Shown here: one piece after another, positions 4,763 to 33,313 of the stretch
Layout of the letters: each line of letters begins with the position of its first letter
Position numbering within the stretch: position 1 is the stretch's first letter
Assembly: GCA_021203865.1 (NCBI GenBank)
Contig: JAJQAJ010000071.1
Location: 1 to 33,739 of the forward strand
Direction: 5' to 3'
From: Clostridia bacterium
GTDB taxonomy: Bacteria > Bacillota > Clostridia > Christensenellales > Borkfalkiaceae
DNA: 33,739 nt
The notes under the pieces: generated by a model
The model's input: the letters and a program-made list of their open reading frames with translations, nothing else
The model's database searches: none
Told to the model about the DNA's origin: nothing
Translations under genes and position numbers: made by a program

Positions 4763-5992
4763 TCATCTTGTCATCTCATCCGTCATGCCGTCAATGACAT
4801 CAAAATATTCTTTGAACGTCTTTGAACACACGTCGGCGTTCTTTATCACCACGCCCTCGCACCTAAGTCCCAGCACCGCGAACGCCATCGCCACCCTGTG
4901 GTCCCCGAAAGATTCAATCTCACAGCCCTTAGGCGCGCCGGGATAAATTGTGACGGAGTTTTCCGTCTCCTCCGTCTTGATGCCGAGATTGGATAGATTA
5001 TACGTCATGGCGTGTATCCTGTCGCACTCCTGCTCCCTTATGTGCCCTATCCCCGTCATGGTCGTGGGATTTTTGAGGAAAGGCGCCACGGCTGCGAGCG
5101 TCAGGGCCTGGTCGGAAAAAGAAGACATGTCCACTTCTCCGCCCTGAAAGGTTTTGAGAAGTTCAATGAAGGCCGCGTCGGACTGCATGCTGTGTGGCAT
5201 GAGCCCCCGCACCTTTATGTCGGTGCCCAAAATTTTGTTCGCCGCGTAAAAATAGCACGCCGCGGAGACGTCGGGCTCCACTTCATACTGCTTTCCGACG
5301 TAAAAGCCCGGTTTTACTGCGAAAGACTTTTTATAGCGCCTGACGCTAACGCCGTACGTCCACATCATGTCGAGGGTCATGTCGACGTATCCGCTCCCGT
5401 GACTTCCGGCAAGGTTAATTTTAACCTGCTTTCCCAGAGTCGGCGCGCACATGAGATACGCGGAAAGATACTGACTGCTCTTGGTGACATCGATTTTTAT
5501 CTCATCCTTTATGTCCTTCGTCCCGCGCACGACGAACGGGAAAGAGTGCTCTACGCCGAGATACTCAAATTTCACCCCGGCGTCTTCAAGGGACGTCAGA
5601 AGCGGCTTCATGGGCCGGGCCTTCATCTGGTCGGAGGCGTCCACCTCGTACACCCCGTCGCTGAAAGAAAGAAGCACAGTCAGAAATCTCGCGGCCGTCC
5701 CGGCGCTTCCGACGTTTATTTTCGCCTCACTTTTTGGAAGTACTCCTTCGCAACCGTCAATGAAAAGTTTGTCCCCCTCCATCTCGCAAGGCACGCCGAG
5801 CGCTTTGAGACAGTCGATGAAAGTCCGGCAGTCGTCGGAAAATTGGGCGCCCGTGAGGGCCGATTCACCCCTCGCGAGAGCGCTTAAAAGAAGAGCCCTC
5901 GCCGTGATGCTCTTTGAGCCTGGGACGGTCACTAGGGCCGAATTGGTCCTGATTTTTTTGTAAACGCTCTCGCATCTATAATCCATGGTCAC
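4763..5992 (-). CDS. aroA: 3-phosphoshikimate 1-carboxyvinyltransferase (EPSP synthase)
   Basis: Joins shikimate-3-phosphate and phosphoenolpyruvate, the sixth shikimate-pathway step toward chorismate. The 409 residues show PGSKSITARA (24-33, substrate-binding Lys27/Ser28), GSAGT (95-99), the SDQMKARPM stretch (120-128), HIREQECDRI and FGDHRVAMA near the end. The start is taken as GTG at 5992: it overlaps the trhP stop by four bases (GTGA) and has GGAG six bases upstream; an ATG two codons in is possible. This implies translational coupling to trhP. The LRxKESDR motif reads IREQECDR, a divergence typical of distant AroA proteins rather than a sign of loss. Confidence 0.93.
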   Translation of the reverse strand: MTMDYRCESVYKKIRTNSALVTVPGSKSITARALLLSALARGESALTGAQFSDDCRTFIDCLKALGVPCEMEGDKLFIDGCEGVLPKSEAKINVGSAGTAARFLTVLLSFSDGVYEVDASDQMKARPMKPLLTSLEDAGVKFEYLGVEHSFPFVVRGTKDIKDEIKIDVTKSSQYLSAYLMCAPTLGKQVKINLAGSHGSGYVDMTLDMMWTYGVSVRRYKKSFAVKPGFYVGKQYEVEPDVSAACYFYAANKILGTDIKVRGLMPHSMQSDAAFIELLKTFQGGEVDMSSFSDQALTLAAVAPFLKNPTTMTGIGHIREQECDRIHAMTYNLSNLGIKTEETENSVTIYPGAPKGCEIESFGDHRVAMAFAVLGLRCEGVVIKNADVCSKTFKEYFDVIDGMTDEMTR

Positions 5993-7191
5993 TTTTGTCT
6001 CCGTCTTAGAATGTCGCCGGCGGAAAGCTCATAAGGACAGGAAAGCCTGTATACCTCCTGCACGAGTTTGCAGTCCGTGACGGCCTCGCCGTCCTCTCTG
6101 AAAGCTTCCTCCACTGTGAAGGATTTGCCGAAGTTTCCGGACGGCGACAGTATTTCCAGCGTGTCGCCTTTTTTGAAACGCGTCTTCATCTCCGCGAGCA
6201 CAAAGCCTCCTTCCATGCCCAGAACGTTCGCTATGTAGTCGCAGTCACCTTTCGCCTGGCTGTCGTCGTAATTGACGGTTTCGTCGTTTTTTCCGAAGGC
6301 GTACGCCGTGGTGTACTCCCTGTGCGCGGCGGTCAGAAGCTCCCTTTCCACCGCCTCGTCGAAGCCGAAGTCCATGCAGCGCCTGTACGCGTTTATGACA
6401 GTGGCAAGGTAATATTCGCTCTTCATCCTTCCTTCTATCTTAAAAGACGAGACCCCGGCTATGGCGAGCTTTTCGAGGTGCCCGGACATGTTGAGGTCCT
6501 TTGAGTTGAATATGTACGTCCCTCTCTCGTCTTCGCCTATCTCCATCCAGCCGGTGTCAGAGAGCTCGTCGGATTTTCTCACGTAATAGCTCCAGCGGCA
6601 CGGCTGCGCGCATTCGCCCCTGTTTGAACTCCTGCCCGTGAGATAGTCGGAAAGAAGGCACCTTCCGGAGTAAGAGATGCACATCGCGCCGTGCACGAAG
6701 GCCTCAAGCTCCAGACCCGGCACGAAGCCGTGTATTTCGGCAATTTCATCTATGGAGAGCTCTCTCGCGAGGACCACCCTCGACGCGCCCTCGTCCGCCC
6801 AGAACTTCGCGGCGTGTTTGTTTGTCGTGTTCGCCTGCGTGGATATGTGTGTTTTGAGTCCCGGCGCCGCCTTTCTCGCCACGGCGTGAACCCCGGGGTC
6901 GGATATGAGCACGGCGTCGACGCCGGCATACTCCAGAAACGAAAAATAATCTTCAAGCGCTCCGAAATCCTGATTTCTAGCGTAAATGTTGACGGTGACG
7001 TATATCTTCTTCCCGAGCGAGTGGCATGTTTTCACCGCGCGGGAAAGCTCGCCGTCCGAAAAATTATCCGCGAAGGCGCGGAGAGAAAAATTCTTGCCCC
7101 CGACGTACACGGCGTCCGCGCCAAAATAAAGCGCGGTGTCAAGTTTTTTGGGATTCCCCGCGGGAGCGAGAAGTTCGACATTTTTTGTCAT
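5989..7191 (-). CDS. trhP: U32-family tRNA 5-hydroxyuridine synthesis protein (TrhP-like)
   Basis: A peptidase-U32 family protein of 400 residues. The family signature is clear: LLAPAGNPKKLDTALYFGAD at residues 8-27, EAFVHGAMCISYSGRC at 163-178, then GECAQPCRW at 192-200, giving a cluster of cysteines (171, 178, 194, 198) of the kind linked to iron-sulfur binding. Despite the old peptidase name, characterised members act on RNA: TrhP makes 5-hydroxyuridine at tRNA position 34, RlhA acts on 23S rRNA. I prefer TrhP because the gene directly upstream, overlapping by ATGA, encodes the partner methyltransferase TrmR. Length is near E. coli TrhP. Cytoplasmic. Confidence 0.85.
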   Translation of the reverse strand: MTKNVELLAPAGNPKKLDTALYFGADAVYVGGKNFSLRAFADNFSDGELSRAVKTCHSLGKKIYVTVNIYARNQDFGALEDYFSFLEYAGVDAVLISDPGVHAVARKAAPGLKTHISTQANTTNKHAAKFWADEGASRVVLARELSIDEIAEIHGFVPGLELEAFVHGAMCISYSGRCLLSDYLTGRSSNRGECAQPCRWSYYVRKSDELSDTGWMEIGEDERGTYIFNSKDLNMSGHLEKLAIAGVSSFKIEGRMKSEYYLATVINAYRRCMDFGFDEAVERELLTAAHREYTTAYAFGKNDETVNYDDSQAKGDCDYIANVLGMEGGFVLAEMKTRFKKGDTLEILSPSGNFGKSFTVEEAFREDGEAVTDCKLVQEVYRLSCPYELSAGDILRRRQK

Positions 7192-7862
7192 GAGAGTTTC
7201 ACCGAGAGCGCGACCCCGTTGCCTATGTTGACTATGGTCGTGTGAAGGCCGGGATCGCCCGTCACCGCGTCAATGTATTCTTTTATGTGCCCTACAATCG
7301 ACTGTCTTTTCCGAGGTGTCTCCCTCTCGCCCGTCACATAACCGTACATAAGGACGTCGTCCGCGAAAAGCACTCCACCCGCGGGAAGCAGCCTTTTTAT
7401 GTCGGGAAGATATCTAAGATACTGAACCTTGGGCCCGTCCAGGAAAACAAAGTCGAAAGGTCCCAAAATGCCTTTCAGAATCTCCCCCGCGTCGCCTTCC
7501 AGAAGCCTCACACGGTCTTTAAGCCCCAGCGCCGCGAAATTTTCCCCGGCCTCCTTCAAAAAATCGGCGTCCTTTTCTATGGTAGTGACCTTGACTTTGG
7601 GCGCGGCGTCAAGGATGGCGGCCGCGGATATCCCCACCCCGCAACCTATCTCCAGGACGTTTTCCGCCCCGGATGAGAGAATTTCAAAAAGAAGAAAATT
7701 CAAAGTCTCGTCGTCCGCCGTGGGTATCTCCCTTTTTCTCGCCTCCGCACGAAGCGCCGAGATTTCGTCCGGGAGCTTCACCTTATTGAACGCCGCCGTG
7801 ACCGACGGTCTTTCCGCCTTTCCGGTGTCCCTGTGCGCGTATGTGAAATCTTTATCTTCCAT
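7188..7862 (-). CDS. trmR: tRNA 5-hydroxyuridine O-methyltransferase
   Basis: A 224-residue SAM-dependent O-methyltransferase of the catechol-OMT-like group: SAM-binding VLEIGCGVGIS at 69-79, acidic TTIEKD after strand 2, FVFLDGPK at 138-145, and ADD at 167-169 (probable metal ligands). In Bacillus subtilis the homologue TrmR (YrrM) methylates ho5U34 of tRNA to mo5U34 and sits beside trhP genes. The same arrangement here, with a four-base ATGA overlap with trhP, makes that function likely. Its ATG directly abuts the rnj stop codon, with GGTGG a short distance upstream. Confidence 0.85.
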   Translation of the reverse strand: MEDKDFTYAHRDTGKAERPSVTAAFNKVKLPDEISALRAEARKREIPTADDETLNFLLFEILSSGAENVLEIGCGVGISAAAILDAAPKVKVTTIEKDADFLKEAGENFAALGLKDRVRLLEGDAGEILKGILGPFDFVFLDGPKVQYLRYLPDIKRLLPAGGVLFADDVLMYGYVTGERETPRKRQSIVGHIKEYIDAVTGDPGLHTTIVNIGNGVALSVKLS

Positions 7863-9713
7863 CTAAATTTCCACCACCGTGGCCACCACCATGGGCGACT
7901 GACGGGTCTTTTTGAATATGTAGTTTTGGAGCGCGCGCTTTATGCGTTTTTTGAGCTCGTCCGAAGACCCTTTTTTGAGGTCGTAGTTTTCTATCACCTC
8001 GTCGACGACCGCCCGCATCTCCTTTTGATAGTTCCTGTGGAAGTCATAGACAAATCCCCTCGAGTTTATGACGGGCTCTCCGAGGACAAGTCCGTTCGAC
8101 ACGGCGACCGAGACAATGAAAAGTCCCTCCTCTGAAAGCTGCTTTCTGTCCTTGACAACGATGCTCGCTTTTTCGTCCTCAATCCCTTCCCCGTCGACGA
8201 GCCTCGACCCTGCGGGAATGTTCTGAACCCTTCTCACAACGCCGCCTTTGAGTTCGTACGCGCTGCCTATTTCGGCGAGGAAGATGTTCTGCTCCTTCAT
8301 GCCAAGCTCGACGGCGAGCCTCGCGTGCATCTTCTGGTGCCGGAACTCTCCGTGGATGGGGATGAAGTATTTGGGACGGAGCAGCGAATGCATTATTTTG
8401 TGCTCCTCGCGGCAGGCGTGCCCGGAGACGTGCACGTGCTCCAAAGCCTCATACACGACGTCGGCGCCCTTTTTGCAGAGGCTGTTTATGACCTTGTATA
8501 TGGACTTCTCGTTCCCGGGGATTGGAGACGCGGAGATTATGACCGAATCGTTCTTCCCTATGACGACGTCCCTGTTCTCGCCGTTCGCCATGCGCGTGAG
8601 TCCGCTCATGGCCTCTCCCTGGCTCCCCGTGGAGACTATGACAATCTGGCTGTCTTTGTAGTTTTTGAGTTTGCCGATGTCGACGAGGACACCCTGCGGC
8701 ACGGTTATCTCCTTTATCTTCTCCGCCGCCTCGATTATGGCGAGCATCGACCTGCCGTTAAGCGCGACCACCCTTCCGTGCGCCTTGGCGATGTCGCATA
8801 TCTGCTGGATCCTGTGAACGTTTGAGGCGAACGTCGCTATTATTATGCGCCTCGACGAATGCTCTTCAAAAATCCTGTCGAGTGCCTCACCCACGGTCTT
8901 CTCACTCATCGTGTACCCGGGCCGCTCTATGTTAGTGCTCTCGCCAAGATACAGCATAACCCCTTTTTCGCCGACGTCGGCTATGGATTTTAGGTCAATC
9001 GGCGCGCCCGCGACGGGCGTGAGATCTATTTTAAAGTCCCCGCTGTGGAATATGGTGCCCTGCGGCGTCGTTATGTCAAGCGCGAGCGACCCGGAAATCG
9101 AATGAGTGACGTTTATGAAATGAAAGCCGAACACGCCTATCTTAATCCTGTCCCCGGCTTTCACCGTCCGGGTATCGTATTCGGTTATCCTGTGCTCGTG
9201 GAGCTTATTGTCTATGAGCGCGAGGGAGAGCGCCGTGCCGAAGATTCTGACGCCTTTTATCTCTTTTAAAAGGTAAGGCACCCCTCCTATGTGGTCCTCG
9301 TGCCCGTGCGTTATTATGAGCGCGCGTATCTTGTCCCTGTTTTCCACGAGGTACGTGATGTCCGGCACTACGAGGTCTATCCCCGGCGTGTCCTCCGTGG
9401 GGAATATCGCCCCCGCGTCTATTATGACGATGTCACCCGCGCACTCAACGGCCGTCATGTTCTTGCCTATCTCGCCCACGCCGCCAAAAAACATCACCTT
9501 GACGCCGTCGTCTTTCTGTCCTTCACGCGTGGCTCCCATCTTCGCCGCGGGCTTATGAGCGGCCGGCGTCCCATGTCCCTTACCCCTGACGGAAAGTTTC
9601 TTTTTTGTGTCAATATCCGGGGCACCGGAAGATACGCCGCGCTGTCCGCCGCTCCTTCTGCGGCTCCCTTTCTGTCCGGAGCTTCCCTTCCTCTCATTTT
9701 TTTTGTCTTCCAC
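7863..9713 (-). CDS. rnj: Ribonuclease J
   Basis: A beta-CASP metallo-beta-lactamase RNase (endonuclease and 5'-3' exonuclease), central to mRNA decay and rRNA maturation in Gram-positive bacteria. The catalytic zinc motif HGHEDH is at 136-141; FFGGVGEIGKNM precedes it, HSGDFKIDLTPV and the beta-CASP region follow, and PIHGEFRH is the late conserved motif. The 616 residues exceed the usual 555 or so because of a basic, Ser/Gly/Arg-rich N-terminal tail of about 70 residues that looks disordered and may bind RNA. Start is GTG at 9713 with AAGGA close upstream. Only one J paralogue is visible here, so J1 or J2 cannot be told apart. Confidence 0.94.
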   Translation of the reverse strand: MEDKKNERKGSSGQKGSRRRSGGQRGVSSGAPDIDTKKKLSVRGKGHGTPAAHKPAAKMGATREGQKDDGVKVMFFGGVGEIGKNMTAVECAGDIVIIDAGAIFPTEDTPGIDLVVPDITYLVENRDKIRALIITHGHEDHIGGVPYLLKEIKGVRIFGTALSLALIDNKLHEHRITEYDTRTVKAGDRIKIGVFGFHFINVTHSISGSLALDITTPQGTIFHSGDFKIDLTPVAGAPIDLKSIADVGEKGVMLYLGESTNIERPGYTMSEKTVGEALDRIFEEHSSRRIIIATFASNVHRIQQICDIAKAHGRVVALNGRSMLAIIEAAEKIKEITVPQGVLVDIGKLKNYKDSQIVIVSTGSQGEAMSGLTRMANGENRDVVIGKNDSVIISASPIPGNEKSIYKVINSLCKKGADVVYEALEHVHVSGHACREEHKIMHSLLRPKYFIPIHGEFRHQKMHARLAVELGMKEQNIFLAEIGSAYELKGGVVRRVQNIPAGSRLVDGEGIEDEKASIVVKDRKQLSEEGLFIVSVAVSNGLVLGEPVINSRGFVYDFHRNYQKEMRAVVDEVIENYDLKKGSSDELKKRIKRALQNYIFKKTRQSPMVVATVVEI

Positions 9714-9772: not shown

Positions 9773-12700
9773 TCACTCTTCTTTTCCGTCCTTTCCGGTC
9801 GTTCTGATGAGTTCTTCCTCTATGAGCTCCTCTGTCGTCTCATACGGGTACATCGCGACATAGTCTCTTTCGCGGACGTTCTGCTTTATGCCGCCGCGCC
9901 TCGCGAGAAGGTTGTCAATGAGACGGATGGCTTTCTTCGCGCCGAGCGGACTTTTCACTTTGACCATCATCGGCGTGTTCGCAACTGACTTGATGTCTGA
10001 GGCGTCAACCTGGTGATAGACGGTTTCTTTGAACTCCTGCGGATTGAGGGCGAGATACAAAACCAAAGTCTTGCCTCGAATTTTAAGCCGTCCTATCGTC
10101 TCCCGGCCTTTATTGAACCTCTCGCCGCCCCACGAGAGATTTGAGTTTACCTTCCTGTACGCGAGAAACGCCGTCTTTATTCTCCCGTAGAACGTCTTTA
10201 TGTCATCGGAGCCTTGGATTATCCTCGAAATGAAGCTCCTGTTGTACTTCATCATTGTCCCGAAATCAGCGGTGATGGGTTGTGATTCGTCTCTTTTCGC
10301 GGCGTGCTGGCGTACCTTGGGCACCGTCTGGTCAAGAATTATTAAAACCTCTTCAACGGGCTCTTTCTCTTTCGCTTCCTTCTCCTTTATCTTTACATCT
10401 TCCGTCTCGTCCTCTATCTCCATGTCGCCTATAAGGTCGCTTATGGTGATGAGCTCTCCGTCATCGACGTATTCGTCTTCCGCCTCGTCAAAATACGCCG
10501 TAGGGGCCGAAGTTTCCTCTTCGTCCTTTTCTTCTTCCGCCTCTTCGGGCCGCTCATCGGAAGGCGCCGTATTTTCCGGCCCTCTTACCTCATCCCCTGC
10601 AACTTCTCTTTCCGCCATGACGACGCCGCTTTCAAGGATGCCGAGAATCTCTTTTGCCCTTTCGTCTACCACGTCGACTTTTTTCTCTATCACCCCACCT
10701 TCGCCCAGGTACTTTTTGACCTCTTCAAGGACGATGTCGGAAATCCTTTCTATGGACGCGTCGTCGAGCCCCGCGAAATGCTCTGTCACGGTTTCGCTCT
10801 CGACTGTGAGCTTTTCTGCCACTTTCTCGGAAAGCTCGTCATAATTTATGTCGATTTTTAGACTGTCGGCGTTTATTTCGATGTGCTCGCCTTCCATGAC
10901 GGCGGTTATTCTGTCCACCACCTCATCTTTCGCGGTGTCGATTTTGTCATAAATCTCTACGCTTTCGCCCTGTATGGTTTCGCCCGAAAGCGCGTCGACA
11001 ATTTTTTTCGCGAGCTCGCCAGCGTCAATCCTTTCAAAGACGGCCCTCGCTATTTTTTCGCATCCTTCTTCGTCAACCGTGACGTCATACCCGGTGGGCA
11101 GAATCTCCGCCACGGATTTTGCTATGCTTTCGGAAAGTTCGTCAACTTTCTCCTCGCTTATCACGGCCTCCGCGGGGGCGTCGCTCTCCGCTCTTTTTTC
11201 GAGAATATCCGTCACGACCTCACGCACGATGTCGGATACCTTTCCGTAATCGACAAAATCGAAGTCAAGGTCTTCCTCGTCTTCGCCGTCCGTGTAGTCC
11301 ATGGCGTCAACGACCTTTTTGGCGACGACGTCGGAAAGCTCCTCATAATCGTTTTTCCTTACCTCGTCTATTCCCCTTGTCACGCCACGCTGAACTATGC
11401 GTCCTATTCTCGCGTAATCGACGTTTCCCTCTCCCTCGGAAGCATCCTCCTCATCGGGTATATTTTCCACCCCGTCGAACTCGCTTTCCTCTATCTCATC
11501 AATGTAATCTACTATGCTTTTTGCTATCTGCCTATAATCTATGTCGAGGGAAGCTATCGCCTCCTGGACCGCCGTCTCGACGACGTCAGTCAAAATTTCG
11601 TAATCGAGCTCTTCAATTGTCTCGTCGACGGCTTCGCGCTCAGCCCCCTCCTCATCGACATCCTCGGCCTCCGTCGCGGTCTCGACGATTTCCTCATTCG
11701 GATACTCCTCGCCTATGAGTCTTTCCGCGAGAAGCGCGGCGAGCTCTTCATAGTCTATCGTCACATCCATTATCTCCGTGAAATCGGGGATGTCCATCCT
11801 TTCGACTATTTTCTCCGCTATCTCCCCTGAATCAATTATTACCTCGGGCGAGGGCACGGCGACTTTCTCCGCTATCATTTCGGAGAGGCGTTCATAATCC
11901 ATGTTCAAAGCGGCGCCGGAATTTTCCGCATAGCTTTCCGTGTAGGTCTCTTCCGCGGTCTCCATTTTTACCTTTTTCGATATCAAATCGGAAAGCTCCT
12001 CTAAGTCCACGTCGACTGTTACCTCCACCGGCATGTCGTTCGCTCTTTCGGGAGTTTCGACGTTTATCCTTTTCGCGATAAGGTCGGATAAAAGCTCATA
12101 GTCTATGTCGGCGGCGATGCTTTGCGCGGCGTCCTCATCGTAGCCTCTCGCGGTCTCAAAGCTCGTCTCTTTGACGGTGACGGGCTCCGCCGTCTTCTGG
12201 GCGGGAATCAAAGCTGCAATTTTCCCCGCGAGAAGGTCGTAATCCATCTCGACGCTCACACTATTTTCCGCGCTTTGGAAGGAAGTTTCCGCCGCGGGCC
12301 ACTCAATCCTGTTCGCGAGAATGTCGGCGAGTTTCTCATAATCGAAGAACTCGTCAACCACTATGTCATCATGCTCGCTAAGCTTGTCCGCAACTAGCGC
12401 GGCGAGTCTGTCGTAATTCAAAGTTTCATAGAAACTGTGCGTCTCCTCCGAGACGGTGTGTGTCACGGGAGCGCTCATAACTTCCGTCACGGGCGTCTTC
12501 TCGCCGGAAAGCCTGTCCGCGATGATGTCGGCGACTCCCTCGACATCGAACTCCTCCTCAACATCTATCTTCTCGGCGAGCTTCCCCGCGAGCGCGCCGA
12601 TGTTTTCTTCGCTCGTGAGACGCTCCGTGATAAGTTCGGACAAAAGTTCATAGTTGAAGTCCTCGGCGTCTATGGCGTCGACATCGATGTATTCATCCTC

Positions 12701-13690
12701 GGCGCTAGATTTGGGCCCGGTTTCATAGGACGTGTCCATAACGCGCGTTTCACTCACGCGCGCGGGGCCGACTCTGTCAGCGACAAGCTTCGCGAGCCTG
12801 TCGTAGTCGATGTTCTCCTCCGTGTTTATTTCTATGCCGATTTTCTGTGCGATAAGATTCGAGAGTTGTTCGTAGTTTATCTCCGTGCCCGCCTCGGGAG
12901 CATTCACGCGGTCCGAGTTTATCTTCTCGGCGATGCTTTCCGCGAGCTCTTCCGTGTCTATGCCGGAGGAGGCGAACGCAAGCTGTTCGGCAACCTTGGC
13001 GGCGATGTCGTCGGCGGAGACAATCTCCTGCACGGGCGCGTTTGAAACGCGTATCATGTCGGCGACCTTTCTCGCAATATCCGAGCTGTCCGCTGTATCG
13101 TTCACGGAGACGGCCGCGGCATCTTCCTCCGTATCCTCTACCTCTTCCGCGGCGAAGTATTCGGCGAACACTTCCTCCACACCGTCGTTTATGGCGTCAT
13201 AGTCAATCCTCGACGCCACAGCGTCAGCGAGTTCACCGTTTCCGAGACGTGCCATGACGGCGTCGGCGAGTTCTCCGTTCCCAAGGCGCTTCATGACGGC
13301 GTCGGCGATGTCGTCCACGCTGAACGATGTGTTCTCCCCGACATGCGCGACGGACGCCTGGAGATCGTCAATCTTTTTGACGAGAAGACTTATCGCGTCG
13401 TTCATTTTGTCATACATCGACTGAGTCTGCTGTGCGATGTATTTGATCTGTTGCCTCAGCGCGGCGTTCTCTTCGAGCGTTCTCTCGAAGATTTCGCTGT
13501 TCTGCCGGGACAGGAACGACGTGTTGGACGCGGTCTTGTCAACCCTGCTGACTATGGCGTTGGATGTGCTGAGAAGACAGTCGACTTTCTCAATTATGAC
13601 ATCGGCCTTTTTGCGAGGTTCCGCAGGCTGCTGGGCGACTGGCGCCGGCGTCTGCCGGATTTCGTTTTGCGTTTGCTTGCCTTTACTCAT
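9773..13690 (-). CDS. Giant acidic repeat protein of unknown function with conserved C-terminal domain
   Basis: I do not recognise a named family. The 1305 residues divide into: a polar Gln/Pro-rich head (1-30); a likely coiled coil (31-115); about 25-30 amphipathic units at 123-995, each close to (I/L)(D/N)Y(E/D)xLSxxIAxx(I/V), e.g. INYEQLSNLIAQKI (271-284), IDYELLSDLIAKRI (529-542), INYDELSEKVAEKL (948-961); a very acidic stretch (1030-1115); and a basic globular domain (1123-1290) containing LSWGGERFNKGRETIGRLKI and GKTLVLYLALNP. The C-terminal domain resembles one I recall from hypothetical Clostridia/Bacilli proteins. No signal peptide or membrane helix, so probably cytoplasmic. Linkers are Glu/Asp rich and of variable length, so the units look like spaced helices, not a tight solenoid. 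It has its own promoter and lies upstream of rnj. Confidence 0.85.
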   Translation of the reverse strand: MSKGKQTQNEIRQTPAPVAQQPAEPRKKADVIIEKVDCLLSTSNAIVSRVDKTASNTSFLSRQNSEIFERTLEENAALRQQIKYIAQQTQSMYDKMNDAISLLVKKIDDLQASVAHVGENTSFSVDDIADAVMKRLGNGELADAVMARLGNGELADAVASRIDYDAINDGVEEVFAEYFAAEEVEDTEEDAAAVSVNDTADSSDIARKVADMIRVSNAPVQEIVSADDIAAKVAEQLAFASSGIDTEELAESIAEKINSDRVNAPEAGTEINYEQLSNLIAQKIGIEINTEENIDYDRLAKLVADRVGPARVSETRVMDTSYETGPKSSAEDEYIDVDAIDAEDFNYELLSELITERLTSEENIGALAGKLAEKIDVEEEFDVEGVADIIADRLSGEKTPVTEVMSAPVTHTVSEETHSFYETLNYDRLAALVADKLSEHDDIVVDEFFDYEKLADILANRIEWPAAETSFQSAENSVSVEMDYDLLAGKIAALIPAQKTAEPVTVKETSFETARGYDEDAAQSIAADIDYELLSDLIAKRINVETPERANDMPVEVTVDVDLEELSDLISKKVKMETAEETYTESYAENSGAALNMDYERLSEMIAEKVAVPSPEVIIDSGEIAEKIVERMDIPDFTEIMDVTIDYEELAALLAERLIGEEYPNEEIVETATEAEDVDEEGAEREAVDETIEELDYEILTDVVETAVQEAIASLDIDYRQIAKSIVDYIDEIEESEFDGVENIPDEEDASEGEGNVDYARIGRIVQRGVTRGIDEVRKNDYEELSDVVAKKVVDAMDYTDGEDEEDLDFDFVDYGKVSDIVREVVTDILEKRAESDAPAEAVISEEKVDELSESIAKSVAEILPTGYDVTVDEEGCEKIARAVFERIDAGELAKKIVDALSGETIQGESVEIYDKIDTAKDEVVDRITAVMEGEHIEINADSLKIDINYDELSEKVAEKLTVESETVTEHFAGLDDASIERISDIVLEEVKKYLGEGGVIEKKVDVVDERAKEILGILESGVVMAEREVAGDEVRGPENTAPSDERPEEAEEEKDEEETSAPTAYFDEAEDEYVDDGELITISDLIGDMEIEDETEDVKIKEKEAKEKEPVEEVLIILDQTVPKVRQHAAKRDESQPITADFGTMMKYNRSFISRIIQGSDDIKTFYGRIKTAFLAYRKVNSNLSWGGERFNKGRETIGRLKIRGKTLVLYLALNPQEFKETVYHQVDASDIKSVANTPMMVKVKSPLGAKKAIRLIDNLLARRGGIKQNVRERDYVAMYPYETTEELIEEELIRTTGKDGKEE
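9991..13330 (-). repeat. Degenerate tandem coding repeats inside the 1305-residue gene
   Basis: At DNA level the helical units recur as variants of a segment encoding YExLSxxIAxxI. The clearest exact repeat is the pair GNGELADAV (138-146 and 150-158) near the N-terminus. Most units have diverged in sequence while keeping the Tyr-x-x-Leu spacing, which points to old duplications kept by selection. The repeats also keep long reading frames open on the opposite strand, which are artefacts. Boundaries are approximate. Confidence 0.6.
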
Positions 13691-13768
13691 ATGTTAAAAA
13701 CCTCTCGAATCATGTCTTCCCGGTCTTAAATCGCACAATCGGCCCGGTAGACAAAATAATACTCTTGT

Positions 13769-13797
13769 ATTTTACAATATAAAAACGCAAATGTAAA
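13769..13797 (-). promoter_or_regulatory. Promoter of the repeat-protein gene
   Basis: TTTACA at 13797-13792, 17-base spacer, TAAAAT at 13774-13769. Expected transcript start is near 13762, leaving a leader of about 70 bases. The start codon at 13690 is preceded by AGAGG ten bases upstream. Confidence 0.6.
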
Positions 13798-13799
13798 TA

Positions 13800-14699
13800 G
13801 CATTGAAGCAAAAAATTCAGGTTAAAATTAAAAGACGGCCACTCAATCGGGCATATTTGCCCACGTACGATGGCGTAAATCCCCCGAAAACGACGATGAG
13901 ATGGCGGGCTTTTACGTGGCGTGGCTTACTTCGCCGTGTGCGTGAAAACGCAATATGTTGGGCGTAAACTTCAGCGCCGCGCCAAATGACGGACGGACGC
14001 GCCCCGGGAAAGTCTTTTTCCGACGCCCCTCAATATCCCCGCGCGAAAAAATTCTGACCGCGGGAAAGAAAAAATTTTTTTCCGAATGCCGAAAAATCAC
14101 TTTGAAACGGCGCCGCAAGACGGGGACTTTTCGCCGTCACCTTCGCTTTGCCCGCATCCGTGCGAAGAAAAAGGCCGCGCCCTACAAACCCGTCGGGCGG
14201 CGGCACAAATCGCGCGTGCCTCGAAAAGAGAAATGAAAACGCACGCCATATGTCCAAATGACCCAAGGTGCGAATATAAGACCCAACCCAAAAACCCGCG
14301 GGCTCGGCATATTCCCCGCCTTCTCATCCGGCGCTATGGCGAAACTTTCGCCGCGGCATATGTGCCGCTCTTGCGGGCGCTCCGCGGGGAAGAAAAGTCG
14401 GGCGTTGAAAAAAGCCCGGCGTCCTGCCCTCATGCCTTTTCGTTTTGTGATGTCTTCATGACGGAGTCACGCTCGGCAATCGGCAAAAGATTTAAAAACG
14501 CCCATAAAAGATGGCGCGGCGATTGAGGCGGGGATAAGGATAAAAATTCCACGAAGCGAAAGGGGCCACGGTCCCGTCCCATAAAAATAAAGGGGGAAGC
14601 GTTTTTGGCCGACCTTACAAAACCGGGTCCGCTTTATTGATTGACATTCAATTTTTGTATCCTTAGTCTCTGATTATTTGAACGCGCCGTCTTATTTTG
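13800..14699. other. Long stretch without a convincing gene
   Basis: About 900 bases between the repeat-protein promoter and the serC promoter. All six frames contain open stretches of up to about 145 codons, but they are Arg/Pro/Ser-rich, overlap one another, lack good ribosome sites and show no family motif. Small hairpins occur (GCGGCA-TATG-TGCCGC near 14354; CGGGC...GCCCG near 14399), none with a clear terminator tail. It may be a decayed locus, but I could not identify a parent gene. Confidence 0.5.
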
Positions 14700-14729
14700 T
14701 TGTACATCCGCGGCGTTTTCAGTTATAAT
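14700..14729 (+). promoter_or_regulatory. Promoter of serC-serA
   Basis: TTGTAC at 14700-14705, 18-base spacer, TATAAT at 14724-14729. Transcription should begin near 14736, directly at the edge of the TGCATA cluster. A second, weaker candidate lies upstream (TTGACA at 14641-14646 with TAGTCT 17 bases on). Confidence 0.65.
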
Positions 14730-14743
14730 CTTATTGTCGTGAA

Positions 14744-14812
14744 TATGCATGATTTATGCATAAATCCGGTTGTTTTCTGCATAATTTCGTGAAATATGCA
14801 ATTTTTTGCATA
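14744..14812 (+). promoter_or_regulatory. Cluster of TGCATA palindromes (probable operators) in the serC leader
   Basis: Four or five copies of TGCATA/TATGCA lie between the promoter and the serC ribosome site. They form a perfect 16-base palindrome, GATTTATGCATAAATC (14751-14766), within a wider repeat TATGCAT-GATTT-ATGCATA (14744-14762), and a second dyad TATGCAA-TTTT-TTGCATA (14795-14812) whose left arm also pairs with TGCATA at 14778-14783. Placement just after the start point suits a repressor. The size and TTGCATAA core recall ARG boxes of some Gram-positive ArgR proteins, but the regulator is not known. Confidence 0.6.
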
Positions 14813-14842
14813 AACAATGAATAAACCGTACGGAGGAACATT

Positions 14843-21924: not shown

Positions 21925-22147
21925 ATGCTGGGACCCGACTTTTTTCTTATGCCCCGTATGCCCGACGCCTCATGAGAGACAAAAAAAAGCGGGATTCGAA
22001 ATCTGCCGGAAACTTGCCGGCTCGGGCGCGGCCGGCGCGCCGTCAAAATAGCGAAAAACCCGGAAAAACCCCGCATTTTTTTAAAATGGCGTGCGCACCT
22101 ACGGAAAAACCAACCAGACGTCGAAATAAGGGATGTGTATTGCGGGG

Positions 22148-22176
22148 TTGATTGTTTTCCCCTTACGTTGTATAAT
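22148..22176 (+). promoter_or_regulatory. Promoter of the AAA-ATPase gene at 22207
   Basis: TTGATT at 22148-22153, 17-base spacer, TATAAT at 22171-22176; GGGAGG follows at 22195-22200. The short leader rules out the upstream in-frame ATG at 22135, which precedes the promoter. Confidence 0.75.
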
Positions 22177-22206
22177 AAAGGGGTAAAAATTTACGGGAGG
22201 CGTTTT

Positions 22207-23895
22207 ATGCCTGAAACCGACAATGACAGAAAGAATATAGCTCTTCTTTCGTCCGACTTTGTCGACACGATGGAAAACGGTTATTTCGTCGACAAATCGC
22301 TCCTTATAAAAGACTTGATAGACACACGCTCAAAGGTCACACTCATAACGCGTCCCAGACGTTTCGGGAAATCTCTCAACCTTTCCATGATACAGACTTT
22401 TTTCGAGAAGACGGAAGAGGATAACTCCGTCTACTTCAATGGTCTCAAAATCTGGGAGTGCGGGGAAAAGTACAGAGCCGAACAGGGGAAGTATCCGGTC
22501 ATATACATGAATCTCAAAGGCCCCTCCGGAAGTAGCTGGGATGAACTGTACTCGGATATCAAAAATGAAATAGTGCACGAATACACGCGGCATCCTGAGC
22601 TTTACGGGAATGTCGAGATACTGGAAGCGCCTTTGTATGAACGCATCGTGAACGGCACGGGGTCTGATTCAGACTATAAAGAATCCCTGAGATTATTGTG
22701 CGAGCTTCTTCACAAATTTTACGGCGTGAAGCCCATAATACTTATGGACGAATATGACCACCCAATTCAGGAAGCCGTGAACGGCAGGTATTACGATGAG
22801 GCGATAAAATTTTTTAAGCCTTTTCTGTCCAATGCGTTAAAGGACAACAAGAGCCTTTCATTCGCCGTGATCATGGGAATTACCAGGGTTTCCAAAGAAG
22901 GGATATTTTCAGGGCTCAACAATCTTAGTGTATGCTCCGTTCTGAATGACAGGTACAGTCAGTATTTCGGGTTCACGGAAGAGGAAGTTGACAAGATATT
23001 GCAAGACTATGGCTGTTCAAAAAAGAAGAGAGAGGTCCGTGAGTGGTACAACGGATACCGTTTCGGGACGGGCAAGACGCGAATCTACAATCCCTGGTCT
23101 CTTATAAATTATGTCATGGCTGGATGCAAACCGAAGGCGTACTGGGTGAACACGTCTGAAAACGGGCTGATAAGCGGGATACTTTTTGACCCCAACGCCA
23201 GGATAAGAGCTAATCTCACAAAACTCGTGGAAGGCGGGAGCATTTCATGCAAGGTGGACGAGAACATAACGTACAGGGATCTTCAAATCGATTCGAAGCA
23301 CATATACAGCCTTCTTCTCATGTCCGGTTATCTCATGTGCGTGTCCTTAGAAGGTGACATGTGCGAGCTTACTATACCCAACAATGAGGTAAGAAAGGTC
23401 TACACATCCGAGATTTGTGACAGACTGTGTCTCGTCGATGACATACCGACCGGGGAGAAGGTTTCCACGGCGATAAAAAACAAGGACGCGAATGCCTTCC
23501 GCAAGGCACTGGAAAGATACATCGCAACTTCTCTGAACTTTACGCTTCTTGACAAAGAACACGCGTATGAACTTCTGACCGTGGGGATTTTGTCGAATCT
23601 CGATAACGTGTATTATATCATTCCCGAGGAGAAACTTCCGAGGACGCAGTCCGACCAGGTTCTCGTGCCGAAGGAAAAGTACAAGGACTTCCTTCCCGCA
23701 ATCGTCCTCGAATACGAAAAGTGCGACGATGAGAAAGATCTTGACGCGAAGGCCCAGGCGGGAAGAAACCAGATAGACGAAAAGGAATATGACATAAGGC
23801 TTAAAGCGTTCGGACACGAGGACATATTCAAACTCGGGGTGGCGTTCTGCGCCTCTCACGTCAGTGTGAAGACGGAGTACAGCGAGATGCCGTAA
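22207..23895 (+). CDS. AAA-ATPase_like protein with altered C-terminal nuclease-like domain
   Basis: A 562-residue protein. N-terminal: YFVDKSLLIKDLI, Walker A-like TRPRRFGKS (48-56), Walker B IILMDEYD (about 177-184), ITRVSKEGIFSGLNNL and YFGFTEEEVD, all hallmarks of the AAA-ATPase_like family. The C-terminus aligns by pattern with the PDDEXK_9 domain (SDQVLVP...LPAIVLEYEKCDDEKDL...QIDEKEYD), but the usual EFK reads EYE, so the catalytic lysine seems shifted or lost. Function of the family is not established. Monocistronic, own promoter. Starts six bases after GGGAGG. Divergent from aspB. Confidence 0.88.
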   Translation: MPETDNDRKNIALLSSDFVDTMENGYFVDKSLLIKDLIDTRSKVTLITRPRRFGKSLNLSMIQTFFEKTEEDNSVYFNGLKIWECGEKYRAEQGKYPVIYMNLKGPSGSSWDELYSDIKNEIVHEYTRHPELYGNVEILEAPLYERIVNGTGSDSDYKESLRLLCELLHKFYGVKPIILMDEYDHPIQEAVNGRYYDEAIKFFKPFLSNALKDNKSLSFAVIMGITRVSKEGIFSGLNNLSVCSVLNDRYSQYFGFTEEEVDKILQDYGCSKKKREVREWYNGYRFGTGKTRIYNPWSLINYVMAGCKPKAYWVNTSENGLISGILFDPNARIRANLTKLVEGGSISCKVDENITYRDLQIDSKHIYSLLLMSGYLMCVSLEGDMCELTIPNNEVRKVYTSEICDRLCLVDDIPTGEKVSTAIKNKDANAFRKALERYIATSLNFTLLDKEHAYELLTVGILSNLDNVYYIIPEEKLPRTQSDQVLVPKEKYKDFLPAIVLEYEKCDDEKDLDAKAQAGRNQIDEKEYDIRLKAFGHEDIFKLGVAFCASHVSVKTEYSEMP

Positions 23896-24340: not shown

Positions 24341-25753
24341 TCAATAGTTTTCGTGCATCGACTGGTATGCGGCGGATAAATCATAATATCCGTTGCGTTC
24401 CAGCCTTTTGTTATTCAGAGCCTTATTCACTTGTGGCAGTTGCGCACAGAACCATTTTCCCCGACTACAATTCGCCGCCATGTGTGCTTCGTATTCAGAG
24501 ATTCCGAACTTCATAAGATTTCTCACCTTCGTCCGCACCCTTTTCCACCGATTCCATATGCACATGCGTATTCTTCGCCGTAGCCAGCCACAGATTTCCT
24601 CTATGCGACTTTTCATACTCGCAATTTTGTAGTAATTCAGCCATCCTTGTGCGCAGCGCCTTATTCTCTTAAAGGCCTCCGACAGGGACTGCACCACTTT
24701 TCGTGAGGACAGCCTTCTCAACTCATCAACAAACTTCGTTATTGACTTCTTGTGTATTCGGATATAGAACCCGTCTTTCCCTTTCCCCAGCGTAAAGCCG
24801 AGAAACCTGAAATCGTTTCCGTCTCCTCCTCCACAATAACCGAGCGTGACTATTCTGCTCTTTTCCCGATTCACCTTCAATTTCAGCTTGCCTTCCAGGT
24901 ATGCCACACTGTTTTCAAGGAGTCTTTCCGCCGCACGCTTGCTTTTGGCGAGTAGAACTATATCATCCGCATAGCGGACAAATTTCACTCCCTTCTTCGC
25001 AAGTTCGTGGTCAAACTCATTCAGGTAGATATTGGCAAGCAACGGCGACAGCGGCCCGCCTTGCGGCGACCCCGTGTCGGTGTCCATTACCACCCCGTTT
25101 ATCATGACTCCGATTTTGAGAAACCGTTTTACGATTTGTATGACCCTCTCGTCCGTTATCACCTTCCGCAGAAACTGCAACAATAAGTCGTGGTTTATGT
25201 TGTCGAAGTATGCGGTCAAATCAAGGTCCACAGCGTACCTGTATCCCTCATTCGCATAATCTCTCACCTTAAACACGGCGTCATGCTGTTTCTTTCCGGG
25301 GCGGTATGCGTAGCTTTCGTCGAGGAACACGCCTTCGTAAATTGGTTCAAGAACAAGCGTCATGGCTTCCTGCACCACCCGGTCAACGACTGTCGGTATG
25401 CCCAACAGTCTTTTCTTGCCGTTCGGCTTCGGAATCTCTACCCTCCTCACGGGCGACGGGGAATATTTGCCTCTGGCAATTCTCTCCCTTAACTCCTGCC
25501 CGTGCTCTTTGAGATATGGCAATGCGTCCTTTACCGTCATGCCGTCTATCCCGGGCGAACCCTTGTTTGCCTTCACTTTCTTGTAAGCGTTGTTCATGTT
25601 GTTCCTGTCCAACACCTTTTCCAAAAGGTCCGGCGTTGCACTATCCCATTTCTCCCATATCAGACGAAAAGACCTATGCGCTTTCGGGTTGCCTTCATGT
25701 TCCGCACTATCCTCACCCGAATAGCCGCCGTTCCCGACGTTTTCTGCTTTCAT
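24341..25753 (-). CDS. ltrA: Group II intron reverse transcriptase/maturase
   Basis: A 470-residue intron-encoded protein: RT blocks from NNAYKKVKANKGSPGIDGM (52-70), IPKPNGKKRLLGIPTVVDRV, AVDLDLTAYFD (174-184), GSPQGGPLSPLLANIYL (229-245), YADD at 261-264; then a thumb/maturase X region with RRCAQGWLNYY. It stops without an HNH endonuclease domain, as expected for class C introns that invade terminators or replication forks rather than cut DNA. It assists splicing and copies the intron RNA into DNA. Start: AGGAGG eight bases before ATG. The stop codon directly abuts domain V. Intact frame. Confidence 0.95.
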   Translation of the reverse strand: MKAENVGNGGYSGEDSAEHEGNPKAHRSFRLIWEKWDSATPDLLEKVLDRNNMNNAYKKVKANKGSPGIDGMTVKDALPYLKEHGQELRERIARGKYSPSPVRRVEIPKPNGKKRLLGIPTVVDRVVQEAMTLVLEPIYEGVFLDESYAYRPGKKQHDAVFKVRDYANEGYRYAVDLDLTAYFDNINHDLLLQFLRKVITDERVIQIVKRFLKIGVMINGVVMDTDTGSPQGGPLSPLLANIYLNEFDHELAKKGVKFVRYADDIVLLAKSKRAAERLLENSVAYLEGKLKLKVNREKSRIVTLGYCGGGDGNDFRFLGFTLGKGKDGFYIRIHKKSITKFVDELRRLSSRKVVQSLSEAFKRIRRCAQGWLNYYKIASMKSRIEEICGWLRRRIRMCIWNRWKRVRTKVRNLMKFGISEYEAHMAANCSRGKWFCAQLPQVNKALNNKRLERNGYYDLSAAYQSMHENY

Positions 25754-31689: not shown

Positions 31690-32012
31690 AATAAAATTGG
31701 ATTCGACATCATATTTTTACAGTTTCAAATCTTACGGTGTATGTGCCGTCGGAGCCGTCTTTTTCCTTTCCTGAATCGTAATTTATTCCGACAAAAAGGA
31801 TGTCGCCTTTGTACGAGAATTTGTCGAAGTGTTTTACGTAGTGCCTGTCCCCAATCTTACCTATCGCCTCATCTGCCGTTTTGTTGTATTTGAGCTCCGT
31901 TACCATGGGTGGATTTCTGCCCACGTCGTAAGGCATGAATATGAGGTCGGCATAACCTTTCCCAGCCTGCGCTTCCGACTCTATCCTGTACTCGCTTTGC
32001 GCGGCGATGTAA
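31690..32012. repeat. Direct repeat, copy 1 (C-terminal third of the ATPase/nuclease gene)
   Basis: This stretch matches 33410-33739 in the same orientation, nearly all bases equal by eye, including about 20 bases past the stop codons. It marks a recent tandem duplication of the ATPase/nuclease gene. Confidence 0.8.
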
Positions 32013-33313
32013 GCGAATCTCATGACGTCCGCGAGTGTTGCTTCATCATTGAACGTCCTTGTGGGGGCGCAGGTCTCATGAAATTTCGCGATAAGATTCG
32101 CGAGCTTTTCTCCGTCTTTGTTGAGAGTTGTGTCAATTATTTCCAAAGAGAGACTCACGAGCATGCTTAGGGGGTCGTCGCCCATACCGCTTATGACTTC
32201 AATGAATTCTCTTTTGATCTCCAGATTGGGAATGTATACCGAGCTTTTGCCTCTGTCATATGCGAGATAGCCGAGATTTACAAGTTGCTTTAGGATTTTG
32301 TTAAGATATCGCTGGGTTGTGTCATCCTCGAAAAATATTTCCTCCTGAATTTGATAGGTGTCGCCGCACAGAAGCTTTGTCAGCACGTCATGAAGGCCGT
32401 CGCTGTTGAGCCTTATGTACTGTTTGAGATCCTCGAATGATTCGGTCCTCGGCCAGTAGCTCATAAGTTGATTGTCAAGAATGGCGGACACCACTGAATT
32501 TGAGTTGTACATGTGGAGGTCTTCACCGGGCTTATTTTCAAATATGTACCCGTCATACCAGTCCCGGATGCCGTCATATGAAAATCCGCGCTCGGCGCAA
32601 AGAGCCTTAACTTCGCCGTCCGTGAACCCGAAGTATTGTTTTACAGGTCCGGGAAATTCCATTGAAAACTCCTGGAACATGTTGAGAGAGGAGTTGGTGC
32701 AGAATTTCTTTATCCCGTGGATGCCCGTCATGTACGCGAGAGCGACATATTCCTGGTCCTTAAAAAGACTTCTCAAAAAGACGAGATAATCATCATGTCC
32801 GTCCGTGTCGGCTTTCTGTTCTCTGAAAGGACTGTCCCATTCGTCAATCAAAAACACAAATTTAATCTTCTTTTCCCCGTAGATTTTTTCAAGCATCGAG
32901 ATTGGCTCTTCTTTTCTGAACGTAATGTCCGGATACGCCGTCTTAAAGTCATCAACGAGATTTTCTTTTATAGTTTCTATCCCCGATTTGGTATCAACAG
33001 TTTTGTTGATAAATTTGACAACGTTGATGTACACGACGTTGTATTTGTTTATGTGGGTTTCATAAGTTTGGGCATTCGAGATTTGGAGCCCGTCAAACTG
33101 TGCGTGAGAATCACATCCACGGCAATAGTATGCCTCGAGCATCTCCGCGGCCATGGATTTTCCGAACCTTCTCGGCCTTGACACACATATGAAACGCTGT
33201 CTCGTGGATATTGACTTGTTTGTATATTCGATTAGCCCGGACTTGTCGACATATATTTCTGAGTTAAGTGAGATTTGAAATTTTTCGTTTCCCAAATTTA
33301 AATAATTACTCAT
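31709..33313 (-). CDS. AAA-ATPase_like/PD-(D/E)XK protein, intact copy
   Basis: A 534-residue protein: IYVDKSGLIEYTNK, Walker A-like SRPRRFGKS (45-53), Walker B FVFLIDEWD (about 160), TGIHGIKKF, YFGFTDGEV, then a C-terminal nuclease-like domain with GKGYADLIFMPYD and MVTELKYNKTADEA, i.e. G-x-x-x-D ... E-x-K intact. The family is accessory and of unknown activity. AAGGA lies eight bases before the ATG. A near-identical second copy begins just upstream and leaves the window. Compare 22207, where the E-x-K is altered, and the dead fragment at 4444. Confidence 0.88.
   Translation of the reverse strand: MSNYLNLGNEKFQISLNSEIYVDKSGLIEYTNKSISTRQRFICVSRPRRFGKSMAAEMLEAYYCRGCDSHAQFDGLQISNAQTYETHINKYNVVYINVVKFINKTVDTKSGIETIKENLVDDFKTAYPDITFRKEEPISMLEKIYGEKKIKFVFLIDEWDSPFREQKADTDGHDDYLVFLRSLFKDQEYVALAYMTGIHGIKKFCTNSSLNMFQEFSMEFPGPVKQYFGFTDGEVKALCAERGFSYDGIRDWYDGYIFENKPGEDLHMYNSNSVVSAILDNQLMSYWPRTESFEDLKQYIRLNSDGLHDVLTKLLCGDTYQIQEEIFFEDDTTQRYLNKILKQLVNLGYLAYDRGKSSVYIPNLEIKREFIEVISGMGDDPLSMLVSLSLEIIDTTLNKDGEKLANLIAKFHETCAPTRTFNDEATLADVMRFAYIAAQSEYRIESEAQAGKGYADLIFMPYDVGRNPPMVTELKYNKTADEAIGKIGDRHYVKHFDKFSYKGDILFVGINYDSGKEKDGSDGTYTVRFETVKI

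Follow-up and report, generated by a model that had tools for sequence, protein, structure and literature searches.

An acidic protein of repeated short helices, encoded ahead of RNase J in uncultured gut Clostridia, as a candidate multivalent scaffold

Introduction

PopZ is an acidic, multivalent bacterial scaffold that forms condensates (PMC8849385). RNA decay has scaffolds of its own: the C-terminal half of RNase E and RNase Y gather enzymes through disordered or coiled-coil regions, and RNase Y is the usual scaffold of the Gram-positive degradosome (PMC5289998). In Helicobacter pylori, RNase J carries a long disordered N-terminal extension of 132 residues (PMC10700544). Here we analyse a 33,739-nt stretch of a Clostridia bacterium (contig JAJQAJ010000071.1; hereafter the window, to which all positions refer) in which the gene directly ahead of rnj, the RNase J gene, encodes an acidic string of short helices. 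This helix-string gene occupies positions 9773–13690 of the minus strand, as an open reading frame (ORF) that starts with the ATG at 13690, stops at 9773 and encodes 1305 amino acids; a direct reading of the sequence places GAGAGG, a ribosome-binding-like site, just upstream. An initial annotation, made from the sequence of the window, had described a cytoplasmic protein of this length at these coordinates, just ahead of RNase J. The ORF bears this out and adds the strand, no transmembrane (TM) segment was found in the protein, and rnj lies 59 bases downstream on the same strand (7863–9713, minus; TIGR00649, 557 bits).

We found that the helix-string protein is real, conserved and rapidly remodelled. 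We tentatively read it as an oligomeric, multivalent, cytoplasmic sticker-and-spacer scaffold, a possible means of concentrating RNase J or RNA. This is the best of several readings, and its RNA-decay part is weaker than its scaffolding part.

A string of short amphipathic helices

The protein divides into four regions, all encoded on the minus strand. A coiled-coil-like N-terminal module with a family signature, defined by a profile from 23 sequences (residues 1–120; 13331–13690), is followed by an acidic repeat region, delimited by a profile scan against shuffles and by unit alignment, with 17-residue helical units of which 19 are strong and about 10 degenerate (residues 121–1000; 10691–13330). 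Next comes an acidic linker that is disordered on a Uversky plot and in which alignment reveals a conserved LITISDLIGD-like stretch, LVTVSDIVE in relatives (residues 1001–1135; 10286–10690). The last region is a folded, double-wing-like C-terminal domain, the C-domain (residues 1136–1305, core approximately 1145–1297; 9776–10285), delimited with a 91-sequence alignment, AlphaFold2, Foldseek and VIA-align.

With a position matrix built from the clear units of the window protein, we recovered 21 units of at least 5 bits in residues 121–1000, compared with a mean of 0.47 and a maximum of 2 in 200 shuffles. Relatives provide a fairer test of this matrix, and there it found 27 units (0.5 after shuffling) in L036, 17 (0.3) in L099, 15 (0.4) in L046 and 5 (0.04) in L103. 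Nineteen units of length 17 align without gaps to the consensus (I)(D/N)Y(E/D)xL(A/S)xx(I/V)Axx(I/L/V), with Leu at position 7 in 16, Ala at position 12 in 14 and Tyr at position 4 in 13; the window's own unit type reads IDYExLSDLIAEKI. The unit profile gave 19 matches in the whole genome, all within the helix-string gene, and the best of them is DIDYELLSDLIAKRINV (residues 528–544; 12059–12109, minus; 28.5 bits). Counting by eye and including degenerate helices such as SVDDIADAVMKRL, DYEILTDVVETAV and DASIERISDIVLEEV, we arrived at approximately 28–30. The 25–30 helices of the initial annotation are thus a fair figure if degenerate copies are counted; the clear count is 19–21.

Mean hydrophobicity peaks at unit positions 2, 7, 11 and 15, with Tyr at 4, and the hydrophobic moment is highest at 98 degrees, the pattern of an amphipathic helix with 3-4-4 spacing. 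Net charge per residue is −0.13 in the units and −0.23 in the linkers between them, which are disordered on the Uversky plot, as expected of a PopZ-like scaffold. No Pfam repeat family covered the units at the gathering score (the best match, DUF948 at E 0.016, lies at residues 71–121, outside the repeat), nor did any NCBIfam family. Neither the whole protein nor a C-domain profile had significant sequence relatives in the Protein Data Bank, and searches of published papers for the family found nothing. These results agree with the initial view that the units are no named solenoid of the TPR or HEAT type; each forms a short amphipathic helix of its own, and acidic linkers join them. The accompanying suggestion that each helix is a docking site fits the data, and the helices may equally well associate with one another.

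A family that stays in front of rnj

We compared 80 loci that encode a relative of the C-domain, the named ones coming mostly from Candidatus Coproplasma and Gallimonas. Relatives of the helix-string protein occur in several genera of one family, these two among them; Coproplasma has been placed in Borkfalkiaceae, order Christensenellales (PMC8035907). The initial annotation had suggested looking for the gene next to rnj in other genomes. We found rnj directly downstream on the same strand at 75 of 78 testable loci (75 of all 80), down to 41% identity. Two loci (L037 and L048) end too early to judge, and the other three (L101, L104 and L105) encode a different protein with three C-domains that is not beside rnj. 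We excluded these three from the family for their position, and the N-terminal signature of L101 was not above the shuffled level. Several loci with 8 kb of upstream sequence show no serC match and still have rnj adjacent.

The N-terminal signature is common to all genera tested, in the form QIKYIAQQTQSMY in the window and in forms like EFKYLSQQNSAIY elsewhere. Its profile matched other genera at E values of 1e-10 to 2e-3, where no shuffled sequence did better than 0.11. Genus g10 has, in front of rnj, a gene for a protein of 577–617 amino acids with two or three units and no C-domain, and these proteins matched the N-terminal profile at 1.2e-5 to 7.3e-5. A contig-truncated protein of genus g12, with 11 units, also ends without the domain, which this homologue probably lacks. 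The g10 homologue has the N-terminal signature, the units and the position before rnj. These three features therefore form the family core, to which most members add the C-domain as an optional part. The C-domain had been proposed as the functional anchor of the protein; it is indeed distinct and conserved, but its absence in g10, and probably in g12, speaks against an indispensable anchor.

Elsewhere the gene is missing and serC lies next to rnj; this holds for genera g4, g6 (L167), g7, g11 (L161), g14 and g18, for a single g5 genome (L163) and for family f17 (L149). Different genes stand at that place in other families. The simplest history suggested by this distribution would be one gain within the family.

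These features suggest how the proposed scaffold might work. Chains would oligomerise through the N-terminal coiled coil, and the 20–30 short amphipathic helices, with their Tyr/Leu/Ile/Ile face, would act as weak, interchangeable sticky sites that pair mutually or with a partner. The acidic linkers would serve as flexible spacers that keep the assembly soluble, and the C-terminal double-wing domain, where present, would contribute a single specific binding site, whose simplest target would be nucleic acid or some shared ligand in the cytoplasm. The constant position right before rnj makes RNase J or its RNA the likeliest client: the enzyme's basic tail could attach to the acidic region, and a local focus of RNA decay would result. 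In favour of this reading are the excess of units over shuffles and their confinement to one protein, their amphipathic periodicity between disordered acidic linkers, the change of unit number and type under retained chemistry, the tighter constraint on units than on linkers, the shared N-terminal signature, the persistent rnj neighbour with its basic tail, and the precedent of PopZ.

A mobile C-terminal domain

AlphaFold2 modelled the C-domain from the 91-sequence alignment with a predicted local distance difference test score (pLDDT) of 91.8 and a predicted template modelling score (pTM) of 0.85. The best Foldseek match of this model was E. coli YjbR (2fki; probability 0.98, E 0.029), with a template modelling (TM) score of only 0.40/0.53. 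In VIA-align, over approximately 92–109 residues, Z was 7.2 for 9t2w, 7.0 for 3h9x and 6.5 for 2fki, 2oc6 and the MotA entries 1kaf and 5jlt. The top eight rows (Z 6.5–7.2, rmsd 3.1–4.1) are all YjbR/DUF419, YdhG/DUF1801 or the C-terminal domain of T4 MotA, except row 3, the NMR entry 2kl4 (NB7804A); frataxins rank lower, at Z 4–5. Although a Z below 8 can reflect a common arrangement, it favours the assignment that the top rows converge on a single fold group. A CyaY-like, double-wing DNA-binding fold has been ascribed to YjbR (PMC7641849). The moderate scores of the model point to a double-wing fold of the MmcQ/YjbR–YdhG–MotA kind, as a resemblance and not as proof of descent. No Pfam family covers the window C-domain even at E 0.1; PF04237 (MmcQ/YjbR) and PF18899 (DUF5655) gave no match to it at E ≤ 0.1 and each matched only 1 of the 91 members of the alignment (E 0.079 and 0.024, respectively). 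The domain is mildly basic (+0.07 per residue). An iron chaperone of the frataxin or YdhG type was also considered and rejected, because conservation falls on aromatic residues, Gly and Lys/Arg and not on an acidic iron patch.

A profile search for the C-domain and its partners, another check proposed at the outset, found the domain on many other proteins. Within the order, 71 of 151 genomes have it, in up to 12 copies each, and among 198 other genomes of the phylum it turned up only once, weakly (E 1.2e-7). Its partners include the ribosomal L15/L18e-type domain PF00828, DUF2357, DUF1508 and MBG. In 17 of 20 sampled paralogues a TM helix precedes the C-domain, mostly with basic residues after it, and the C-domain of these paralogues should therefore be cytoplasmic. 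The C-domain is thus an unnamed, order-restricted mobile domain. In its tree, the rnj-linked copies cluster (3 label changes, where shuffles give 29) apart from those of the membrane paralogues, and the clade of 39 that contains the window copy is supported at 100/96.

Individual loci illustrate these architectures. In L116, L117–L124, L125, L126, L129, L130, L132–L134 and L136, one to four tandem copies sit on the cytoplasmic end of membrane or long surface proteins. The domain is fused with PF00828 at the C terminus of membrane proteins in L133:2582–6661 (E 6e-12) and L130:1999–4086 (E 3e-10), and by eye in L132, an odd place for a ribosomal-protein fold. Soluble proteins with DUF2357 followed by two C-domain copies are found in L127 and L131, over the cut-off, and by eye in L128.

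The spread of the domain bears on an alternative to the scaffold reading, namely that the protein is a cell-organising hub with no role in RNA decay. The C-domain would bind a ligand (protein, nucleoid or ribosome) shared with the membrane and surface proteins, the helix string would space or gather these proteins, and RNase J would be a mere operon neighbour. The preceding TM helices with their basic flanks, the tandem copies, the fusions to PF00828, DUF2357 and DUF1508 and the high copy number across the order all argue for such a hub. It would nevertheless have to work without the C-domain in g10, and truncated g12 shows none; the membrane paralogues fall apart from the rnj-linked copies in the tree, and adjacency to rnj persists even where serC is lost. 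We regard the hub as unlikely, though as the strongest of the alternatives.

Opposite charges of the helix string and the RNase J tail

We next consider the scaffold reading from the side of RNase J. The window enzyme has a basic N-terminal tail of 75 residues (net +11), and every scored RNase J beside a helix-string gene has such a tail, with a median of 103 amino acids and net +18. Across gene pairs, the scaffold region has a net charge of −31 to −290 in complete proteins and the tail one of +11 to +39.

Several observations weigh against the scaffold reading, and particularly against its RNA-decay part. Scaffold charge and tail charge do not covary over 69 loci (rho −0.14, p 0.25). Moreover, genera g6, g7 and g11 and families f6, f13, f17 and f21 have long basic tails but no helix-string gene. 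Other neighbours are conserved as well: downstream of rnj come a class I methyltransferase and a U32 protein (5989–7862, minus; assigned by NCBIfam and synteny), the latter nearest to the TrhP tRNA U34 hydroxylase model but below its cut-off, and then aroA, and the divergent upstream genes are serC and one for a serA-like dehydrogenase. Since these neighbours are conserved too, and since other genera and families lack the gene between serC and rnj, gene order by itself does not point to RNA decay in particular. Nor is the usual degradosome scaffold missing, since RNase Y is encoded in the genome by a different gene on another contig. Finally, a full-length AlphaFold2 run with 11 orthologues gave a 593-amino-acid orthologue separate helices of 11–15 residues and no solenoid; its pLDDT of 44 means no confident model, and this very low-confidence prediction is consistent with separate helices and is no evidence by itself. 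Judged from the genomes, the link to RNase J comes down to a persistent gene order and a plausible match of charge.

Electrostatic co-evolution of scaffold and tail was rejected: besides the missing correlation and the tails that lack a scaffold, the genus pattern (six scaffold genera, all with the tail; three with the tail only; eight with neither) equally fits a single gain inside a tailed clade. The tail itself (in the window at 7863–9713, and in L138–L177) is long and basic in some genera and families and absent from others, with gain or loss apparently at the genus-to-family level.

A second alternative is a nucleic-acid mimic that regulates RNase J, in which the acidic string would restrain the enzyme by competing with RNA for it or for its basic tail, so that the number of units would tune the dose. 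Strongly opposite charges in every gene pair, and co-oriented genes so close together in the window, are what such a regulator would lead one to expect. The lack of covariation and the tails without an acidic gene speak against it, and a simple mimic would need neither conserved hydrophobic unit positions nor a C-domain; we consider it quite improbable.

Rapid remodelling under purifying selection

Complete orthologues range from approximately 500 to 1850 residues, and close relatives vary freely in length. Aligned with L036, its nearest relative, the window protein shows 89% identity and 3 gap columns in the C-domain, but 53% identity and 198 gap columns in the repeat region. The ratio of nonsynonymous to synonymous rates (dN/dS) for this pair is 0.04 in the C-domain, 0.16 in the units and 0.30 in the linkers; dS is near saturation, so the order counts more than the values. 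The gene is under purifying selection, with units more constrained than linkers.

Unit number and type differ between lineages and the chemistry is retained. L036 has a young array of EIDYDAVAEKVAERI units (72-base period, 2.7 copies), L160 many copies of VNVDEIAAKTAERIVLPEVKIPE, and L086 many copies of long EEDYTALSEAVASEVERRV repeats. In the window copy, Tandem Repeats Finder found only one tandem repeat left at the DNA level, 39 bases × 2.3 copies encoding LGNGELADAVM/ASRL(I) units (13221–13308, minus; score 120). Similar chemistry thus appears to have been rebuilt from different unit sequences, as would be expected if number and stickiness outweigh exact sequence. The L160 homologue at the same locus (L160:2–947, in coordinates of the reverse-complemented locus) is truncated and consists of near-identical PEVNVDEIAAKTAERIVL repeats, which form a young array of 23-residue units.

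The geometry of the units also raises the possibility of a rod-like coiled-coil spacer or cytoskeletal filament, in which 3-4-4 (hendecad) units would join into long, length-setting helices. The 98-degree peak of the hydrophobic moment is the value of a hendecad, although angles of 94–102 degrees are indistinguishable on so short a unit; the repeats of L086 are tandem units of approximately 55 residues that read as long helices, and the N terminus has long helices too (residues 20–114 in a model of L041, at modest confidence). In the window, however, the units are broken by linkers of 0–55 residues that contain Pro and Gly and are highly acidic and disordered on the plot. The spacing of the window units, 17–72 residues with one gap of 95, is as irregular as initially described, but this does not extend to relatives with young arrays, which are evenly spaced (20–24 residues in L036, 23-residue units in L160). 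With that irregularity and the free variation in length among close relatives, a rod seems a poor candidate, about on a par with the mimic. Least plausible by far is a fast-drifting repeat protein of little function kept by slippage in a GC-rich stretch: the many gap columns beside a well-conserved C-domain and the fresh tandem DNA arrays would fit it, but the low dN/dS of units and C-domain (dS being near saturation) does not, nor do the reading frames, which are open and long throughout, or the C-domain matches obtained from all searched genomes of the genus, and no pseudogene or premature stop was seen in the complete relatives read.

Implications and other features of the window

If the scaffold reading is true, uncultured gut Clostridia have evolved their own multivalent organiser beside a major RNA-decay enzyme, apart from RNase E and RNase Y, and its copy-variable helices would form a natural valency series (approximately 5 to 30 units) in which to test sticker number against bacterial assembly. 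A bolder version, which we consider a long shot, would make the protein a family-specific condensate former of a new kind, dedicated to RNase J, with 5–30 interchangeable helices, a number tuned by slippage, and a double-wing domain shared with the inner ends of membrane proteins that ties together RNA decay, surface proteins and nucleic acid. The C-domain is of interest in its own right as an undescribed, order-restricted mobile domain with a predicted fold of the nucleic-acid-binding type. A name for it would make it easier to annotate the many membrane proteins that carry it and lack annotation.

Between the helix-string gene and serC lies approximately 1.15 kb without a clear gene (13691–14842) in a compact genome of 1.7 Mb, where the only ORF, of 146 amino acids, is of uncertain standing. 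Farther away, the window encodes a group II intron reverse transcriptase/maturase (24341–25753; TIGR04416, 411 bits) and two related-looking ATPase-like proteins on opposite strands (22135–23895 and 31709–33313), both with an RPRRFGKS motif and without an NCBIfam match.

Comparison with known systems

The helix-string protein resembles PopZ (and SpmX) of Caulobacter in its acidic, disordered character and its proposed multivalency; condensates have been seen for PopZ. PopZ has few helical sites, a proline-rich acidic linker and no folded C-terminal domain like this one. By contrast, the helix-string protein has 20–30 repeated helices and a folded C-terminal domain, and it gave no PopZ-type Pfam match at E ≤ 1. 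Unlike RNase E and RNase Y, it lacks a membrane anchor and a nuclease domain, with no match to a Pfam nuclease family. TPR and HEAT solenoids share the principle of repeated helical units, but here these are single short helices on irregular linkers. The likeness to Helicobacter RNase J is the long N-terminal extension; in the present family of enzymes the tail is rich in K, R, P and A and is present with and without the scaffold gene. Compared with MmcQ/YjbR, YdhG/DUF1801, DUF5655 and T4 MotA, the window C-domain has an additional C-terminal part of approximately 35 residues and a distinctive set of conserved residues, namely Tyr1168, Trp1187, RGKT at 1205–1208 and Pro1240.

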